Below, piece after piece: positions 3,994 to 58,549 of a stretch of DNA of 64,000 nucleotides. The notes below the pieces were generated by a model. The model was not told where the DNA came from, searched no databases, and was given only the letters and a program-made list of their open reading frames with translations. The translations under genes and the position numbers were made by a program. Within the stretch, counting starts at the first letter, position 1. Each line of letters starts with the position of its first letter. This DNA comes from Tissierellales bacterium (GTDB taxonomy: Bacteria; Bacillota; Clostridia; Tissierellales; Sedimentibacteraceae): contig JAHDQO010000004.1 of the NCBI GenBank assembly GCA_018433765.1, positions 1 to 64,000 on the forward strand, given 5' to 3'.

Positions 3994-4191
3994 ATGTGGA
4001 TATATGAAAAAAAATTGCAATATCCTGTTAAGGTTAGTCATAGAGATGTAAGAATGGCAAGAAATGTTTTAACTCAGTACGGTGGAGCTGATGGTGAAGC
4101 CGGTGCAGCATTAAGATATTTAAATCAAAGGTACAGCATGCCTTTAAACGAAGCAAAAGGACTGCTCACTGATATAGGTACCGAAGAATAA
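3994..4191 (+). CDS. CotJC, N-terminal segment (gene split by the 13.4-kb element)
   Basis: These are the first 65 residues of CotJC, a di-manganese catalase-like spore coat protein. The start has GAGGTG upstream. The segment includes GGADGE (predicted ligand E35) and ends LLTDIGTEE, where the family continues with F/L-A-H. Here the next codon is a TAA supplied by the inserted element. The missing 125 codons lie in the same orientation from 17575. Deleting 4189-17574 gives 190 codons in frame, matching the family's usual length of about 190. Without excision this segment yields a truncated protein lacking three of five predicted metal ligands. Confidence 0.92.
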   Translation: MWIYEKKLQYPVKVSHRDVRMARNVLTQYGGADGEAGAALRYLNQRYSMPLNEAKGLLTDIGTEE

Positions 4192-4207
4192 GAACCAATA
4201 AGATGTC
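4170..4207. other. Inferred attL (left junction of the cotJC element)
   Basis: Host cotJC sequence runs up to the shared AAGAA at 4184-4188; element sequence starts at 4189 (TAAGAACC...). The element half (4189-4207) is an imperfect inverted repeat of the element half at attR (17553-17571), with 13 of 19 positions pairing around AAGAA. The crossover point was derived from restoration of the CotJC reading frame. Confidence 0.75.
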
Positions 4208-4242
4208 AACTAGTATTACTTATCTATTTGATTATTAAAAAA

Positions 4243-4433
4243 GATGGCACTTACACGCCATCTCAGGCTATTGACAAACCAGAATTTCATCGTTGTTGCC
4301 TCAATCGAGAATGCTCACGTATTTTTATATACGCTCCGCTTACTCTCTTTCGGCACGCCTCGAACTTCAAGTTTCTCAAAAACCTGTCATCTTGTTGACT
4401 TTGTCAACAATCTGATGGCGCTTACACGCCATC
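4243..4433. repeat. 137-bp repeat, copy 2, nested between two copies of a terminator stem
   Basis: GATGGC...GCCATC hairpins lie at 4243-4262 and 4414-4433; only the second is followed by a T run. Between them are CAGGCTA, the 137-bp repeat (4271-4407) and CAATCT. The layout looks like insertion into a terminator with duplication of its stem-loop. The last hairpin plus T run can end the transcript of the minus-strand anti-sigma gene. Confidence 0.8.
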
Positions 4434-40342: not shown

Positions 40343-41374
40343 ATGAAAAACAAATTATGTATTTTAGTAATAATCTTCTTAGCAATATCACTTATTGCTT
40401 TTATCATAATAAAGAATTCCACTATATTTTATAAACTTATGATACCTGATGAAAATCTATACAATGCTTTATTGGAAATATCAAATAAAGACACTATAAG
40501 TAAAGATGATTTTATTGAATGTGAGAAACTTAACTTTATAAATAAAAATATTACTAATCTTAAAGGGTTAGATTATTTAGATTTACCAAAACTTAAAACA
40601 TTAAGAATTACAGATAATCATATAAAAACATTTAAAAATATTGATTTTTCAAAATTTGAGAATTTAGAAAACTTATATATAAAAGATAACACTCTTAAAA
40701 ATATTAATTTTAGCAAATTGTATAAATTAAAAAAACTTAAAAATATTAGTGTCTCTGATGTTAAATTGTATTCAATAGAAATAAAATCTATAGAAAATTT
40801 ACAAAATTTAACCATTGATGGAGGTCATACTTTAACATTAGATAATATTCATTTAATAAATTTACCTAATTTAAATGAATTAGATTTAAGTTATGTTGAT
40901 ATAGTAGAAAACGAAAAATTAGATTTAGTCAATACTAATAATATAAAAAAACTGCATTTTTCTGATGGCATTATTCCAAGTTCTTCTATAAACAATTTTG
41001 AAAATATAAAAAACTTAGAATTACTAAACTTTCGTAATATTATCCTTGATAATTATACACTTCACGAAAATTTTATTTCTAATTTAAATAATCTTAAAGA
41101 ATTACACATTACTGTCAGTAGAATAAATAAAATTGACTACAATGCTTTTTATAATTTGAATAATTTGAAAGAATTGGATTTAGAAACTAATAGTTTGAAG
41201 AAATTATATATTAATAAAATAGAAAGCCTAGAAATACTAAATCTAAAAAGAAATTTTTTTGATGATATTACTAACCTAGACTTAGATTCCTTTCCTAATT
41301 TAAGAGAGTTAAACTTAGAGAGAAATCTAATAAAAAGCATTCCTAATGATTATGAATATAATATTATTTATTAA
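40343..41374 (+). CDS. Membrane-anchored leucine-rich repeat protein
   Basis: 343 residues. N-terminal membrane anchor (6-26), a short helical region, then about ten leucine-rich repeats of 21-26 residues from about residue 70 to the end (LPKLKTLRITDNHIKTFKNI; LNNLKELDLETNSLKKL). The repeats probably face outward and bind protein or polysaccharide. GGAGG is 41 nt before the ATG, separated by a 10-bp hairpin. Neighbouring patatin and C39-like genes suggest an envelope cluster. Confidence 0.8.
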   Translation: MKNKLCILVIIFLAISLIAFIIIKNSTIFYKLMIPDENLYNALLEISNKDTISKDDFIECEKLNFINKNITNLKGLDYLDLPKLKTLRITDNHIKTFKNIDFSKFENLENLYIKDNTLKNINFSKLYKLKKLKNISVSDVKLYSIEIKSIENLQNLTIDGGHTLTLDNIHLINLPNLNELDLSYVDIVENEKLDLVNTNNIKKLHFSDGIIPSSSINNFENIKNLELLNFRNIILDNYTLHENFISNLNNLKELHITVSRINKIDYNAFYNLNNLKELDLETNSLKKLYINKIESLEILNLKRNFFDDITNLDLDSFPNLRELNLERNLIKSIPNDYEYNIIY

Positions 41375-41465
41375 ATAATTAAAATATGGTTGTTTTTTTA
41401 AAAATAAATCCCTCTTATTATATATAAGATTAATCTTAAATTGATATAGAAAGGAGGGACTTTTA

Positions 41466-42023
41466 ATGGGTTATAAATATATTGATGTTACTGTTTGTAA
41501 TAATCATTATACACAAAAGGATTCCAGATGGGGAGAACTAGAATTAGATGGTGGCAGCTATATAAAAGATGTTGGTTGTGCATTAACATGTGCAGCTATG
41601 ATCGAAGGAATAACTCCTAAGTCATTATATTTAGATTATGACATGACTGATGAATTAGTTGATTGGAGTAAACTTCCAACATATAGAATTGTTCACGAAT
41701 CAACTTCAGATAGTGGATTATTTAGTGATTTGTTTGAATACGCTATTCAGCCAAGTAATCCAGATATAGACCCAAAACCAATCATACTTTATGGAGATGA
41801 TGGCAAAGGAAATGACAATAGTACGCACTTTGTAGTTGTCTCAGGATTTAGAGGAACTGTAGCTGTAGATACTGACGGAGGATTTATGTATGCAAAAGAT
41901 CCAACAGATTTTTCTCAATTTATAATAAACGATCCTGCAAACAATCATAAGAATTTAGAGAAATTTCTAGAAGTGTATACTCCTGTAGAAGATGAAGAAT
42001 ATAGAGTTCCTTATAAAAAATAG
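41466..42023 (+). CDS. C39-like (papain-fold) cysteine peptidase-type protein
   Basis: 185 residues. Pattern of the peptidase C39-like family: YTQKDSRWGE (Gln17), GCALTCAAM (Cys38), HFVVVSGF (His121) and IINDPANN (Asp156). No signal peptide, so cytoplasmic or released by another route. AAGGAGGG ribosome site; an upstream TCCCTC could pair with it and mask it. A role in peptide or peptidoglycan cleavage is possible; a non-catalytic role is not excluded. Confidence 0.72.
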   Translation: MGYKYIDVTVCNNHYTQKDSRWGELELDGGSYIKDVGCALTCAAMIEGITPKSLYLDYDMTDELVDWSKLPTYRIVHESTSDSGLFSDLFEYAIQPSNPDIDPKPIILYGDDGKGNDNSTHFVVVSGFRGTVAVDTDGGFMYAKDPTDFSQFIINDPANNHKNLEKFLEVYTPVEDEEYRVPYKK

Positions 42024-51249: not shown

Positions 51250-52791
51250 CTACTTTATTTCAATTAATTCTCCTCTATCAAATGCAAGGAATGGATATGT
51301 ATAATATAAACTGTAATAATTGTCAACAACTTTTGCAGTATCTAAATCAATATATACTGGTATGTTTGGCACAGTGATACTTATTTCAGGCATTACTGGT
51401 GTAGGGTCAGTAGTAAAATAATAACTATTGTAACCATATGTAGCATTACTATAAAAAGCATGATAAAATCCATCATTTATATAAACAACAGCAATATTAT
51501 GAGAAGCATTTGGTATGTCTTCTTTCCAATATTCATATTGATAAACTGAACCTACAAGAGACAAAGAATTATTAAAAATATGAAGTGATTCTTTAACATG
51601 TTTGTAAGCAGTCTGGTCATAATCCCAATCATATTGATAATATGTGCCCGCTACTTCAACATTCTTACCATCTATAGATACTTGACTTCCGTTACACTGT
51701 ATAACATTACCAGTTGGTGCTGCAAATACTGCTCCTCCAAGATAATTACAAACATTAAAATTATATTCATTATTTGTAAATTCACCTGTATAGCTTAAAA
51801 TTCTGAAATAATAATCGCCTTCTGATAAATTAAAACCTTTTATATTAGAATCTATTAAATAGTTTCCTAAACTTGATAAATTACTATCATATAAAAACAA
51901 TGCATATTGTTTATCTAGTTCAGTCTTAACTGATATGCAGTAATTTCCTGCATGTCCACTATCTACTGTTAATTTAAACCAATCTTCATCATATGCATTA
52001 TCAATAGTTCCTGTTGTTTTAATTGTATTAGTATAAGAAATTGCTTCATTGTAATTATCATTTACTTCATTTTGATCATAGTTTTCAATTACATCTACTA
52101 AAAAAGTATAATTATAGCTTGTAGTGGCTGCTTCATATGGTGATATACACAAAAAGTAATAACCATCATCACCTATATAATTAATTTTTTCAAAGCCTCC
52201 AACATTTGCTGAATAATCAACTAAATTTAAAGTAGTATCATCAAGTTTATAAAGATATATGTTATAATCACCTTCGCCATCTTGATTTAAAATAGAACAT
52301 AATTTATTTGTTCCTATGTTTTCGAAAAAATACCACCTGTCATTTGCATCAGCAGTATCAGCCAAAGGCACTCCATAATACGTGCTATTTATAAAAAGTG
52401 CATTGTTAGGATCAGTATTAGTAGTTCCAGTAGGTGTACTTTCCATAACTTTAGGTATATCTAATATGTTATCTATTTGAATAGATGATCTGCTTTCATC
52501 TATTTTTCTATCTTCAAATAGTTCTTTCCCATCTAGCTCTTTACCCATATTTTCAACTTGAGTTTCTGTAATTTCTTTTCCATCTATAGGAGTAACCTTT
52601 ACTCTTTCACTACTTTTATTTATATCCGCTGTATTTGACTGTATTTCTGCTCCTTCAGGTATACCAGCATTAGCTCTTGTTTCCTCTTCAATTTTTAAGA
52701 CATTCTCATCTATAATATCGGCATATACTACACTCGACATTAATACTAAAATTACTAAAACACATAAAAATTTACTTTTCTTAAAAATCAT
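51250..52791 (-). CDS. Secreted protein with pre-peptidase C-terminal (PPC) domains
   Basis: 513 residues. Signal peptide 1-24 (cleavage after VYA), a Thr/Ser-rich linker, then two PPC-like beta domains (about 140-240 and 250-350; DANDRWYFFENIG and DEDWFKLTVDSGHAGNY patterns) and a C-terminal beta-rich region. No protease domain is attached. Probably exported and surface or medium located. It is divergent from the C39-like gene at 53085, which also carries a PPC domain. Confidence 0.75.
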   Translation of the reverse strand: MIFKKSKFLCVLVILVLMSSVVYADIIDENVLKIEEETRANAGIPEGAEIQSNTADINKSSERVKVTPIDGKEITETQVENMGKELDGKELFEDRKIDESRSSIQIDNILDIPKVMESTPTGTTNTDPNNALFINSTYYGVPLADTADANDRWYFFENIGTNKLCSILNQDGEGDYNIYLYKLDDTTLNLVDYSANVGGFEKINYIGDDGYYFLCISPYEAATTSYNYTFLVDVIENYDQNEVNDNYNEAISYTNTIKTTGTIDNAYDEDWFKLTVDSGHAGNYCISVKTELDKQYALFLYDSNLSSLGNYLIDSNIKGFNLSEGDYYFRILSYTGEFTNNEYNFNVCNYLGGAVFAAPTGNVIQCNGSQVSIDGKNVEVAGTYYQYDWDYDQTAYKHVKESLHIFNNSLSLVGSVYQYEYWKEDIPNASHNIAVVYINDGFYHAFYSNATYGYNSYYFTTDPTPVMPEISITVPNIPVYIDLDTAKVVDNYYSLYYTYPFLAFDRGELIEIK

Positions 52792-53084
52792 TTATATCCT
52801 CCTATATTACTATTTTTAATTTAAAGCAACAAAACATATCATTCCGGAATTTGATTTATATTGCTTTCACTTATATTTTATCAAATTAGGTAATAATTTA
52901 CAATATTGTTATGTTAAATATATGAAAAATTTGTATAATATTTTATTATTTTACTGATTTAATTACAAAATAGAAAAAAGTCATAGTAAAAGGTTGTTAT
53001 TCTTGTCATATATATCATGTTGTATTGTGTAATCAAAAGTTGATCAACAATTGATGAAATTTAATTAATGAAAGGTGATTTTAG

Positions 53085-54572
53085 ATGAATAACTTTATAA
53101 AAAGTAAAACAAATAAAGATGATGTAACCTACGAAGTATATGAAACTGATAAAAATAATTCTACAATGTCGAGAGCTCAAGAAATTGAAGATGATCAAGA
53201 TGTTCTAGGAGAAGTTAATGAGAAATATGACATAGACTTTTATAAAATTAAGTGGCCTCATTTAGGTACAGCAAACTTTTACTTGAATCCTATTGGTGAC
53301 CATGATGTAGACCTTAGAGTATATGATGAATCAGGCAAATTACTAGATTCATCATCTAAAATGACAGAATATGATTTAGTTACACTAGATGTGGAAGCTG
53401 ATACTTATTATTATATTAGAGTCAGACATCCAGGTCCAAATATTAAACCAGGTGAAAATGTAGAATATCATTTAAGATGTAAAAATTATTGGGAAAGTGA
53501 CTTGGGAATTATTAGTATAACCGCAGATAAGTCTGAACCTTTTAAAATTGGAGAAGAAGTAAAATTTTCTATAAAAGTCAAGAATTATTTAAGTACTCAA
53601 AGCCCTAAATTTGCAGTTCGCACTTATGGAGCAGATGATGGTATTTTAAAACATTATAAAAATCCTTTAGATGGTTATGAAACAACTTATACTAAATCTT
53701 ATGTAATTATGAATTCACCAGGAAAACATACTCTTACTTTTAAAATAGAACAAGATTGGGTAGATCAAAAACCATACAATAATACTAAGAGTAAAACTTT
53801 TACATGGATTGATGATTCACAGCAACCAATAGACCATGTATGGTATAGTCAACTAAATCCTGGTCCTAAAGACATTGAGGGAAAAGTTAAAACATGGGAT
53901 GATAGTAATTTACACAAAGTATTTTTTACTAACTGTAAAAACAATAAAGGAAATTTAATACATAAAAATCAACCATTAGCATTATATAATAGTAATAGAA
54001 ATGAAAGAGGTATAATAAATAAAGAAGGCTGTGTTATGTGTTCAATTGCTATGCTTCTTAAAAATCTTAATAAAAAAACTATAACTAAACATAAAGATAT
54101 AAGAACTGGATTAACAAATTATCTAGATGCTGACCCGTTTACTGTTACAATGTCAAATATAAATTGGATAAATATACCATACGCTAATGACAAAGGCAAT
54201 CATATAGTTACTCAATTAGTAAGTGATCCAATCTACTTATATAGTAATGATAATATTGAAAAACATTTTGGAGTAAAATTTAAAAGTCAGGAACTAATAA
54301 ACAAGACTAATAAACAAAAAGCTGAAATACTAATGGAAGTTTTAGACAAACATCCTGAAGGAGTAACTGCTAGTTTCAATGGACCTCATACTATAATTAT
54401 AACAAAATATGAAAATAAAAATAATAGTAATTATGATACATATTTTACCGTATGTGATCCTGGAACAACTCAGTCACGAAAAGGAAATAATGTTAACTTT
54501 ACATCTTCCTTTACTTATATAGATTATAAAGATACATTATCAGATTTACTTAGTATACAATATATAGAATAA
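53085..54572 (+). CDS. PPC + CARDB-like + C39-like multidomain protein
   Basis: 495 residues. A PPC-like domain (35-132; DVDLRVYDESGKLL), a CARDB-like domain (145-245; FKIGEEVKFSIKVKN) and a C39-like peptidase region (300-470) with Cys316 (EGCVMCSIAM), His435 (GPHTIIITKY) and Asp458 (VCDPGT). No signal peptide although the first two domains are normally extracellular. GAAAGGTG ribosome site. It could be a self-acting or cell-lysis-released protease; function unproven. Confidence 0.7.
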   Translation: MNNFIKSKTNKDDVTYEVYETDKNNSTMSRAQEIEDDQDVLGEVNEKYDIDFYKIKWPHLGTANFYLNPIGDHDVDLRVYDESGKLLDSSSKMTEYDLVTLDVEADTYYYIRVRHPGPNIKPGENVEYHLRCKNYWESDLGIISITADKSEPFKIGEEVKFSIKVKNYLSTQSPKFAVRTYGADDGILKHYKNPLDGYETTYTKSYVIMNSPGKHTLTFKIEQDWVDQKPYNNTKSKTFTWIDDSQQPIDHVWYSQLNPGPKDIEGKVKTWDDSNLHKVFFTNCKNNKGNLIHKNQPLALYNSNRNERGIINKEGCVMCSIAMLLKNLNKKTITKHKDIRTGLTNYLDADPFTVTMSNINWINIPYANDKGNHIVTQLVSDPIYLYSNDNIEKHFGVKFKSQELINKTNKQKAEILMEVLDKHPEGVTASFNGPHTIIITKYENKNNSNYDTYFTVCDPGTTQSRKGNNVNFTSSFTYIDYKDTLSDLLSIQYIE

Positions 54573-54613: not shown

Positions 54614-56275
54614 TTATCGTCCTCCTTTATCATAATATAAAAAAGAATCTATTTTCCAATCTCCACTTTCTTTTATTATTGTTAATATATAATCAACGTT
54701 ACAAAAACATCTTACAACTTCTTGCCCTGTCTTACCAGTACATTTTGCTAATATATATGATTTTCCATAATCATCTCCTATCAATATATTCCTATTTTTT
54801 ATTGTTCTGTTATACCACCATTCTGTATCTCCTGGATAAAAAATAAATGGAACTATATTATAAATCACCTTATTATCATCAATTTTTTCTAATATAACTC
54901 TATAACTATCCCAATTTATAAATATATAACTTCCCCAAAAAGCTAAATAAGTATTTCCATTAACATTTAAAATATCTGCTTCATTTAATAATCTATTTAC
55001 AAATTGTTTTGAAATTGTACTTTGTAAATACTTCTTAAAATCATCAAAGTTTTGTAACTTTTCATCAGATATTAAATAAAACTCAATATTATTTTTATTT
55101 ATTACATTATCATGATTTATAATTTTATCTCTATCTAATATATTTGTCACAATATTAATACCATCATTAGTCAATTTTTCTAATTCATCATATTTCAATA
55201 CTTCTAAATCGTTCATTTTTAAGTGTTCTGCATTTATGTACTCTTGATCTTCTTTTTTTAGTATTTTACCATCTAAATTAATATCACTTACTTTTGTATA
55301 TTCTCTTTTACCTATTTTAACTAAAAATTGTTTTTTTATATTAACATTATTAAAGGTAATATTTCCTTTTTTAATTGTCTTTGCTATTGCTAAATTGCCT
55401 TCTATATTTACATTTTTTAGTGTAATATTTCCTCCTGTTATTGTTGCATTTCCTTTTATAGTCATGTCTTTTATTGTTTTAGTTTCATCTTCTTCGTTGT
55501 ATATTATCAATCCAAATGCATTATCTAGTAATTTTAGCATTTCTAGTCTTGTAATATTTTCTTTAGGTCTTAGATATCCGTCTTTTATATCTATAAGGTC
55601 TTTTTCAACTACGACACATAATTCATCTATGCTCCAACTTGATATATCTTCTTTATCTTTTATTTTTTCTAAACATTTATATTCTTCTTCAGGAAACTCA
55701 AATTCGTATAATATATTATAAAGCATTTGGCATGCTTTTTCTCTTGTTAAATTATCTGTAGGTTCTATTGGGGGCAGTATATCTGCTTCTTTATATTTTT
55801 TATGTAATTCCAATGTTTCTACAACAGTACCATAATTATACCATTCTCTAAATAAAAATAATTCTGTCTTATCATCATCTACTTTTAATAAATAATTAAT
55901 TAACTCAAGAAATTCTAATCTAGTTGCAAAATCACTATTTTCAGTAATTCCTAACTCATTAGTCCAATACTCTAGCATATCTTTGTTTAATATTTCTTTT
56001 TCTTTTTTAACTGTATTAGTTTCTTTTTCTTCTAATTTATCTTTATTAATATCTAAATCTACTTTAGTCAAAACTACTGCTTCACTTTCTAGTTTTGCAG
56101 ATGGACTAATATTAGCTTTTTCTAATGATGTCTTTGACGAATTATTTTTATTTGTAACTTCATAACTAGTATCAATTTTATTATTTCTTCTATTGTTATT
56201 GCTTTCTAAGTATATACTCCCCCCAAATAACATTGTTAAAATAATTATTATAGAAATAATTAATTTATTTTTCAT
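54614..56275 (-). CDS. Exported protein with S-layer-homology-like region
   Basis: About 553 residues. Signal/anchor (5-22), a Lys/Ser-rich linker, then two SLH-like segments (DNLTREKACQMLYNILYEF and ENITRLEMLKLLDNAFG, about 165-260), a short beta-repeat stretch (ITGGNITLKNVNIEGNLAI) and a mixed C-terminal domain. SLH domains attach proteins to pyruvylated wall polymers. The start at 56275 follows GGAGGAAG. Possibly a surface protein. Confidence 0.72.
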   Translation of the reverse strand: MKNKLIISIIIILTMLFGGSIYLESNNNRRNNKIDTSYEVTNKNNSSKTSLEKANISPSAKLESEAVVLTKVDLDINKDKLEEKETNTVKKEKEILNKDMLEYWTNELGITENSDFATRLEFLELINYLLKVDDDKTELFLFREWYNYGTVVETLELHKKYKEADILPPIEPTDNLTREKACQMLYNILYEFEFPEEEYKCLEKIKDKEDISSWSIDELCVVVEKDLIDIKDGYLRPKENITRLEMLKLLDNAFGLIIYNEEDETKTIKDMTIKGNATITGGNITLKNVNIEGNLAIAKTIKKGNITFNNVNIKKQFLVKIGKREYTKVSDINLDGKILKKEDQEYINAEHLKMNDLEVLKYDELEKLTNDGINIVTNILDRDKIINHDNVINKNNIEFYLISDEKLQNFDDFKKYLQSTISKQFVNRLLNEADILNVNGNTYLAFWGSYIFINWDSYRVILEKIDDNKVIYNIVPFIFYPGDTEWWYNRTIKNRNILIGDDYGKSYILAKCTGKTGQEVVRCFCNVDYILTIIKESGDWKIDSFLYYDKGGR

Positions 56276-56404
56276 AATATCTTCCTCCATACTATTAAAA
56301 ATTACCTTTTTAATTTAAAGTTTAAATAATATTTAGCAATATACAAATCATATTATATACTTAATAAATAATTTATCAACACTATTGTGGAAAATTTTAC
56401 TATA

Positions 56405-56450: not shown

Positions 56451-57065
56451 CTAATTATTCTTCTGAACTATATAATCTATATACCCCTGTTTTATTTTTT
56501 CTCCTTCAAAGATTCTTTCTAAAATCCTATTTTCTTTAAACAATATTTTCATATCTTTAAAATGTTTTTCCGCCTCTTCAACATCATAATAGGTATGAAT
56601 AACTTTATTGTCTCCTTCACTTTGTAAAAATTCTCCTTCTCCTACTTTTTCACCTTGACCATAATCATCATCATATATAGAGAGAAAATTTATAAAACAA
56701 ATTCCACGCGGTTTTAACACTCTTCTTATTTCTTTTACAGCTTTTGAAATATCTTTTTTCTTCATATGAAAGATGGTATTATAAGAATAAATATAGCTAA
56801 TTGATTTATCTTTGAATGGAAGTTCTCTCATATCCCCTTTTGAAATATTTATTTCCACATTATGTTCTTTACAGAAATTTTGAGCCTTTTCTATTTGTAA
56901 ATCATTTAGTTCAATTCCATATGTCTTATAACCGTACTGCTGAAAAAGTGCAAGTGGTGGGCAGTTTCCTCCTGCTCCACAATCTAATATAGTTTTTTCT
57001 AAATTAATCTTATTACAGTAACTTAAGAATTTGTATAACTGTGTTTGTCTAAATATTAACTCCAT
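56451..57065 (-). CDS. Class I SAM-dependent methyltransferase
   Basis: About 204 residues. TILDCGAGGNCPP is motif I, YGIELND motif II, and ELPFKDKSISYIYSYNTIFHM and LKPRGICFINFL are the later motifs of the Methyltransf_11-type fold. Substrate unknown. The start at 57065 follows GAGGAG, a few nt upstream. Confidence 0.86.
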   Translation of the reverse strand: MELIFRQTQLYKFLSYCNKINLEKTILDCGAGGNCPPLALFQQYGYKTYGIELNDLQIEKAQNFCKEHNVEINISKGDMRELPFKDKSISYIYSYNTIFHMKKKDISKAVKEIRRVLKPRGICFINFLSIYDDDYGQGEKVGEGEFLQSEGDNKVIHTYYDVEEAEKHFKDMKILFKENRILERIFEGEKIKQGYIDYIVQKNN

Positions 57066-57176
57066 ACATCTCCTCATTTCTTATATATTTAAAAATTTTA
57101 TCTATATATAATAGTATCATTTGTACATGAAATTAACAGACTATAGAAAAATTATTTTTTATGATATAATATATGT

Positions 57177-57218
57177 ATAAAAAAATAAGAACTGTTTCTT
57201 TAGTAACAGTTCTTAGCT
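57177..57218. terminator. Terminator after the RsoA-like gene
   Basis: Stem TAAGAACTGTT (57186-57196) / AACAGTTCTTA (57205-57215) with A- and T-runs; it ends the sigma module transcript on the minus strand. Confidence 0.85.
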
Positions 57219-57222
57219 TAAA

Positions 57223-57474
57223 TTATTTTTTATGTTTACTAAGATATTTTTTAATATATTCTGAATAATCTTTGTCTACATAAATAAATTTTCTTGCACA
57301 TATAATTAATCTCATCATCTGTTCTTGGTAGCAATCTTCATTAAATACCCCATCAATATAACTTTTTTTTCTAGCCAAATATATAAATCTATTTAATAAT
57401 TCTAATGATGCTTCATTATTTTTTTTCTTTATAAAAAAGCATAAATCTTTAAACTCCAAATCATCATACTCCAT
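57223..57474 (-). CDS. Sigma region-2-like protein (RsoA-like partner)
   Basis: 83 residues. LLNRFIYLARKKSY and EDCYQEQMMRLIICARKF resemble the N-terminal region-2 helices of the TcdR/UviA/BotR and RsoA type. It lacks any region 4. AGGAGG precedes the ATG. Third gene of a three-gene unit; in Bacillus subtilis RsoA (about 79 residues) works with SigO as a split sigma factor. The similarity is by pattern and context, so moderate. Confidence 0.6.
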   Translation of the reverse strand: MEYDDLEFKDLCFFIKKKNNEASLELLNRFIYLARKKSYIDGVFNEDCYQEQMMRLIICARKFIYVDKDYSEYIKKYLSKHKK

Positions 57475-57499
57475 TAATTTCCTCCTGCGTTTATAAAAA

Positions 57500-57646
57500 C
57501 TATTTCTCTCTTACAATCAACTTCATTAGGTCAATTAAATTTTGATTAATCTTATTTAATCTGTTTTCTATTCTTATTAGTAAAAATGCAGATACTACTA
57601 TTGGAAATCCAAAATTACCAATTAACTCTATAAAATTATCCATCAT
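57500..57646 (-). CDS. yvrJ: YvrJ-family small membrane protein
   Basis: 47-48 residues (adjacent ATGs at 57646 and 57643). FIELIGNFGFPIVVSAFLLI and RIENRLNKI match the YvrJ family: one transmembrane helix then a short coiled tail. GAGGTG lies inside the end of the sigma-like gene, which it overlaps by 8-11 bp. Too short to be noticed by many gene callers. Role unknown; the family recurs beside split sigma factors. Confidence 0.75.
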   Translation of the reverse strand: MMDNFIELIGNFGFPIVVSAFLLIRIENRLNKINQNLIDLMKLIVREK

Positions 57647-58160
57647 TTTTCACCTCTAGTTCTTTTCTAAGCTTGTTCAATATCTTTTTTCTAGCTTTAC
57701 TTACTGCTTGTTGTGTTATATTTAAGTCTTCTGCTACCGCTGTATCGGTTTTTTCTTCAATTACGCATTTGTATAGTATTTGTTTTTGCCTTTTTGTAAG
57801 TTTCATAATTTCTTCTAAAAGAAAATAATTATTAACTATTTCTTCAAAATCTATAGTTTCATTAAGATTATAAACTTCTTTTATTAAATCAAATGACTTA
57901 TCTTCAATATTGTACATATATTCTGTACTACCTTCTCCTATGCAATCATTTAATATCAATTTCTCATTTCTATTAGTATTGTATAGTTTTCTTTTATATT
58001 CTTTATTTGTATAGTTTAGAGTTTTATTAATATAATTAAGAAATTTAATATTAAAAATGTAATTATTTAAGTCTTTATTTATTTCTTTTACAGGTATATT
58101 ATCTATATTTTTATTTGAATTTTTGTACTTTAACATAAGCATTGACAATAAATCTTCCAT
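57636..58160 (-). CDS. Sigma-70 region-4 protein (SigO-like)
   Basis: About 174 residues. The C-terminal region 4 is clear: LTKRQKQILYKCVIEEKT, then AVAEDLNITQQAVSKARKKI. The N-terminal part (FLNYINKTLNYTNKEYKRKL) resembles the domain in SigO-type and phage-like sigma factors rather than region 2. The start at 58160 has AAGGGG 8 nt upstream; the frame opens to 58217. First gene of the module with yvrJ and a region-2 partner. Confidence 0.75.
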   Translation of the reverse strand: MEDLLSMLMLKYKNSNKNIDNIPVKEINKDLNNYIFNIKFLNYINKTLNYTNKEYKRKLYNTNRNEKLILNDCIGEGSTEYMYNIEDKSFDLIKEVYNLNETIDFEEIVNNYFLLEEIMKLTKRQKQILYKCVIEEKTDTAVAEDLNITQQAVSKARKKILNKLRKELEVKNDG

Positions 58161-58549
58161 TAATTCATCCCCTTTGCATTTTTTATTAATAAATACAATA
58201 TGCGTAATTTTTATCATATTTTGTCTTATATTTAATAATATGTAATTAGATAAATAAAAAACAACCCTTTAGACAATTTTTATTTTTTAACTAAATAAAA
58301 TTGCTTCTACTATATAAGAACGATTTTTAAATAAAAAATGTAAAGCGAAATTAATAATTTCTTGTTTAATTCTAAAAAAAATTGAAGTTACTATATCTTA
58401 CAAAATAATTTAAGAAGAATGTTTTACAATTAAAGTATTTATTACTTATTTTATTTAATAAGAATTGTAAAATAAAAAGACTGTAAATATCAGTAATTTT
58501 GATATTATACAGTCTGATTTGTTTTGTAAATCATAAAAAGGATAGGAAG
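58161..58549. other. Intergenic region with a terminator
   Basis: 389 bp, AT-rich. At 58478-58515 a terminator for the kinase gene is seen: AGACTGTA / TACAGTCT with an inner AATATCA/TGATATT, then T-rich on the minus strand. The rest must hold the promoter of the sigma module; no clear consensus found. Confidence 0.65.

Follow-up and report, generated by a model that had tools for sequence, protein, structure and literature searches.

Three small open reading frames that overlap or adjoin on the minus strand of a 64,000-nt stretch of DNA from a Tissierellales bacterium (the whole stretch analysed, below called the window) raise the question whether one sigma factor is encoded there in two halves, with a YvrJ-family peptide gene between them, and which genes such a factor would control. 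The three frames named in an earlier sequence-only reading are all present, and the unit has the following composition.

57636 to 58160, minus strand: sigO-like gene, 174 aa, regions 2.3/2.4 to 4, Sigma70_r4 match.
57500 to 57646, minus strand: yvrJ, 48 aa, PF12841 match.
57223 to 57474, minus strand: rsoA-like gene, 83 aa, regions 2.1–2.2, assigned by a profile match and the conserved partner gene.
57179 to 57217, minus strand: hairpin and T run directly 3' of rsoA, probable transcript end, read from the sequence.

The sigO-like gene shares its last 11 bases with yvrJ, and 25 bases separate the end of yvrJ from the start of rsoA. Ribosome-binding sites are found upstream of all three genes: AAAGGGG 5' of position 58160, GAGGTG before yvrJ, and GCAGGAGG (AGGAGG) before the rsoA-like gene. 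The sigO-like frame is also open from an alternative upstream start at 58217, the start of the 174-aa product being the one with a good ribosome-binding site. As the hairpin and T run end the unit, the methyltransferase gene at 56451–57077 is separate from it. No oxalate decarboxylase was seen among the open reading frames read at 38.5–64 kb, only a subset of which was scanned against Pfam, and neither RsiO (YvrL) nor oxdC was recognized among the frames read in the window, which were read without reference sequences for comparison.

Profile searches, proposed in the earlier reading, place the SigO-like and YvrJ products above threshold. The 174-aa protein matches the Pfam profile Sigma70_r4 with E = 2.4e-7, and the YvrJ peptide, a single hydrophobic segment followed by a charged helix, belongs to the YvrJ family by its match to PF12841 (E = 5.2e-14; 52 bits versus the curated cut-off of 29.5). 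The 83-aa protein taken alone yields sub-threshold matches only, to HTH_16 in Pfam (E = 0.008) and to SigH region 2 (E = 0.011). The RsoA profile, built from twelve RsoA-like proteins, matches SigF (E = 3.1e-4) and SigW (E = 6e-4) from PDB, and also single-chain sigma factors, in region 2; for the SigO profile the match is to region 4, in FliA, SigF and SigB. In three single-chain sigma factors the match to the SigO profile takes up at the end of the RsoA match: RsoA at residues 13–76 and SigO at 65–190 in L025, 12–74 and 62–193 in L034, and 9–82 and 75–193 in L042. As the two profiles lie end to end in these proteins, the break falls inside region 2. The profiles thus predict the SigO/RsoA pair to be a single sigma factor divided near the 2.2/2.3 boundary, given the region limits that we assume, which supports the suggestion of a split sigma factor.

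Regions 4 and 2 reside on separate, linked genes, as in SigO–RsoA, and not in one chain, as sigma2 and sigma4 do in Group V sigma factors (TcdR, BotR, UviA); the gene order sigO...rsoA is reversed relative to the order of sigma domains. The SigO model resembles structures of sigma region 4. Structure prediction of the small protein had been named in the earlier reading as the refuting test; the AlphaFold model of the RsoA-like protein is helical (pLDDT 84), and Foldseek and VIA-align with this model gave no sigma domain among the matches listed, a result uninformative in either direction.

The gene order SigO–YvrJ–RsoA is also observed in five other genomes (G050, G041, G514, G270 and G625), each from another family, making six families with the window; G625 belongs to a different class from the window's genome. 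The relatives of the 83-aa protein, which keep this order and whose profile matches region 2, identify it as a probable RsoA-like protein, and given the recurring gene order its place beside the SigO-like protein is beyond chance. RsoA matches in two further genomes, G805 and G764 (L184, L185), come without a recognized YvrJ and without the upstream motif described below, and a search of three genomes in the class of G625 gave no additions.

Several related loci have been observed besides these. On contig 13 of the window's own genome there is a second split sigma pair (L059:8199–9689; 145 aa and 65 aa); the product of the next gene, 285 aa long, belongs to DUF4367, has a single apparent membrane segment and may be the anti-sigma factor of the pair, and similar GGTTGATAAAA elements are located before the sigma gene, before the gene of a 171-aa secreted protein, and at a third place. 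In G067 (L054:8167–14734) a split pair is found amid repeated S-layer-homology genes and fragments, with two candidate target genes for proteins without signal peptides in between. A region-4 gene with an RsoA-like gene immediately after it is widespread in Lachnospiraceae, Oscillospiraceae and Enterococcus (L066, L069–L124), and RsoA-like genes are present on conjugative E. faecium plasmids (H1–H11), with no annotation beyond that of a helix-turn-helix protein. These genes may likewise encode split sigma factors.

Upstream regions of the sigO genes of split modules have common elements resembling GGTTGA-20-TCTTA. The pattern GGTTG-N20..22-T[CTA]TTA was sought within 300 bases upstream of 12 sigO genes and of 178 other genes from the same loci. 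GGTTG-21 nt-T[ACT]TTA is present upstream of sigO in 8 of the 12 split modules, compared to five of the 178 other genes. The binomial probability of 7e-10 is optimistic, as the pattern was chosen after seeing these sequences; fairer tests are the permuted patterns (n = 360), which match at most one of the 12 sigO genes, and the spacing, which equals 21 in all eight sigO matches and never 20 or 22. Candidate promoters and targets in the window are as follows.

58236 to 58266, minus strand: candidate operon promoter GGTTG-21 nt-TATTA, best match of a matrix trained on other genomes, with spacing equal to that of seven other sigO genes.
58310 to 58345, minus strand: second candidate promoter CTTTACA...CGTTCTTATATAG, –10 part identical to that of G050, –35 part off consensus.
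41388 to 41418, plus strand: candidate promoter GGTTG-20 nt-TCTTA of the gene at 41466–42023, motif match.
41466 to 42023, plus strand: candidate target, 185-aa protein without a signal peptide, N-terminal hydrophobic segment absent.
52992 to 53031, plus strand: weak candidate promoter GGTTGTTATT of the gene at 53085–54572, –10 part poor.
53085 to 54572, plus strand: possible target, 495-aa protein without a signal peptide, C-terminal part weakly C39-peptidase-like.

When the matrix was built from nine sites with G625 left out, its two best matches in G625 fell about 80 bases before two genes for proteins without signal peptides. In the window alone, matrix scores are within the range of shuffled sequence, and relaxed motif searches of the whole genome gave no excess over a reversed-pattern control. 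A stricter pattern, GGTTGTT-N17..19-TMTTAT, matches at four places in the 4.19-Mb genome; two lie in the window, before sigO and before the gene at 41466, and are the sites from which the pattern was derived.

Besides sigO, five genes bear the motif: the window's gene at 41466, one of 144 aa from L052, one of 135 aa from L055 and two from L183; in L054, two genes for signal-less proteins have a related element upstream. Their products are uncharacterized and lack signal peptides, none having a strongly hydrophobic N-terminal segment, and searches of PDB, PHROG and NCBIfam with the candidate cargo proteins gave no family, save one weak PHROG match. The product of 41466–42023 has a weak likeness to C39 peptidases (Peptidase_C39_2, E = 0.16, below the cut-off), and BLASTP found no significant similarity between it and the product of 53085–54572. 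L183 also holds a second rsoA-like copy of G625 (4072–4263) without sigO or yvrJ, followed by the motif and a gene for a signal-less protein. In the window, the gene directly upstream of the candidate target at 41466 (40343–41374) encodes a protein with leucine-rich repeats and a membrane segment at its N terminus.

The sequence-only reading had proposed the adjacent surface proteins as candidate targets and, as a check, a look for common promoter motifs upstream of the 51–58 kb genes. The guess does not hold for the surface proteins with signal peptides (51250–52791 and 54614–56290), upstream of which the motif was looked for and is absent. It is right in part: a weak motif precedes the neighbouring 53085–54572, whose product has no signal peptide, and a better element, outside that region, precedes 41466–42023.

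Homology, the split point, the conserved gene order, the common motif of fixed spacing and its presence before genes for signal-less proteins are best explained by a SigO/RsoA-type sigma factor of two subunits under its own control, which probably drives its own operon and a few genes for proteins without signal peptides. The RsoA-like protein would supply regions 2.1–2.2, docking on core RNA polymerase, and the SigO-like protein would supply regions 2.3/2.4 to 4 and read the promoter; both halves would be needed for activity, either one alone being inactive. The complex is expected to recognize the GGTTG-21-T[ACT]TTA motif. As judged from yvrJ lying in the operon and the common motif upstream, it most likely transcribes its own operon, including yvrJ, and it would also transcribe a few genes for small signal-less proteins, here 41466–42023 and perhaps 53085–54572, which YvrJ may serve.

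What YvrJ does is where other explanations arise. One of them adds a single export step to the two-subunit sigma explanation: the module would be a sigma–holin–cargo unit like TcdR–TcdE or UviA–UviB–Bcn5, in which YvrJ permeabilises the membrane and the co-regulated signal-less proteins leave the cell. We consider this possible, but rather doubtful. It agrees with the match of the window's YvrJ to phage holin family PHROG 4898, a weak one (E = 2.1e-5; among YvrJ peptides, E is 2e-5 to 1.5e-6 for three and 0.0026 for one), and with the lack of signal peptides in the products of motif-bearing neighbours. Moreover, modules that lack YvrJ often have a gene of the BhlA holin family as a neighbour: it adjoins the pairs of G067 and Alkaliphilus pronyensis (PF10960, E = 1.7e-35 and 1.3e-28), and a gene similar to the BhlA holin adjoins the split pair of G451. 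Clostridia encode a sigma factor, a holin and signal-less cargo together (PMC9527704, where YvrJ is not mentioned), and OxdC, the product of a SigO–RsoA target gene, is translocated to the cell wall (PMC8254039). However, profile comparison shows no homology of YvrJ to BhlA/UviB (PF10960), with no BhlA match in Pfam and an hhalign probability of 0.3%, and most YvrJ genes belong to a different operon, with DUF1659 and DUF2922 genes close by. Should YvrJ be the export partner of signal-less proteins, the split sigma factor would switch on carrier and cargo together, so that SigO–RsoA–YvrJ–OxdC and the clostridial toxin and bacteriocin loci would be versions of one sigma–holin–cargo scheme, an idea that we put forward tentatively.

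YvrJ could instead be a membrane sensor or anchor that keeps the sigma subunits inactive, that is, a tiny anti-sigma factor with no role in export. The location of yvrJ between both sigma genes fits this, as does the charged helix after the membrane segment, which could bind a sigma factor; further, 24 of the 30 best-scoring YvrJ loci of the order (L190–L219) encode a sigma factor, usually a single-chain one, no more than about 1.5 kb away, so that proximity to a sigma factor gene, whether split or intact, is usual for YvrJ genes. We nevertheless regard it as unlikely. The known anti-sigma factor of the B. subtilis SigO–RsoA system is YvrL, and a different role is suggested both by the holin-family matches and by BhlA holin genes taking the place of YvrJ. 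Among the targets of SigO–RsoA in B. subtilis is yvrJ itself (PMC8103513).

A decayed sigma factor, or a mobile-element remnant, without a regulatory role is a very improbable reading of the trio. Two-gene pairs related to it are frequent among other Firmicutes, one of them (L066) beside conjugative-looking genes, and occur on conjugative enterococcal plasmids, but no match was found in 50,697 phage records, with two weak viral-contig relatives only, and the reading frames and gene order are kept in six families, the upstream motif in most.

Two-subunit sigma factors are already known, being described for one B. subtilis system within the literature searched, while the SigO–YvrJ–RsoA layout, the motif and the link to cargo are found nowhere in the open-access literature searched. 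The trio with its common promoter signature in distant Firmicutes suggests a self-regulated unit making, and perhaps exporting, small signal-less proteins. A conserved operon with its own promoter signature yields testable targets for two-subunit sigma factors and for the role of YvrJ, and the link to signal-less proteins offers a concrete idea for the route of OxdC to the cell wall.

The preferred reading, a two-subunit sigma factor controlling its own operon, has a close counterpart in SigO–RsoA (YvrI–YvrHa) of Bacillus subtilis, where the sigma4 and sigma2 parts are likewise on separate proteins linked to yvrJ. In contrast to that system, yvrJ lies here inside the sigma operon, no oxdC is seen nearby, and the candidate targets are other signal-less proteins. 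The HTH_16/region-4 pairs, e.g., those of enterococcal plasmids, likewise have an RsoA-like gene immediately after a region-4 gene, but no YvrJ is detected in them by profile search, and the L066 pair is flanked by conjugation-like genes.

The UviA–UviB–Bcn5 and TcdR–TcdE loci resemble the module in that genes for signal-less products stand together with those for a holin-like small protein and a dedicated sigma factor (PMC9527704). They have a single-chain sigma factor with the holin BhlA or TcdE, whereas the module has a split sigma factor, its YvrJ shows no demonstrable homology to BhlA, and its candidate products are, as far as searches show, unrelated to toxins.

In most YvrJ loci (also L048 and L063), small genes that by eye are DUF1659- and DUF2922-like are located between the sigma gene and yvrJ; at L001:1750–2112, in the same genome as the window, an opposite-strand 120-aa gene, whose product has by eye only a four-helix-bundle likeness, lies between the DUF2922-like gene and YvrJ. 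This sigma factor–DUF1659–DUF2922–YvrJ operon of Clostridia differs from the module in its unsplit sigma factor and in its small proteins, assigned by eye to DUF1659 and DUF2922, and agrees with it in placing YvrJ near a sigma gene, together with small proteins.
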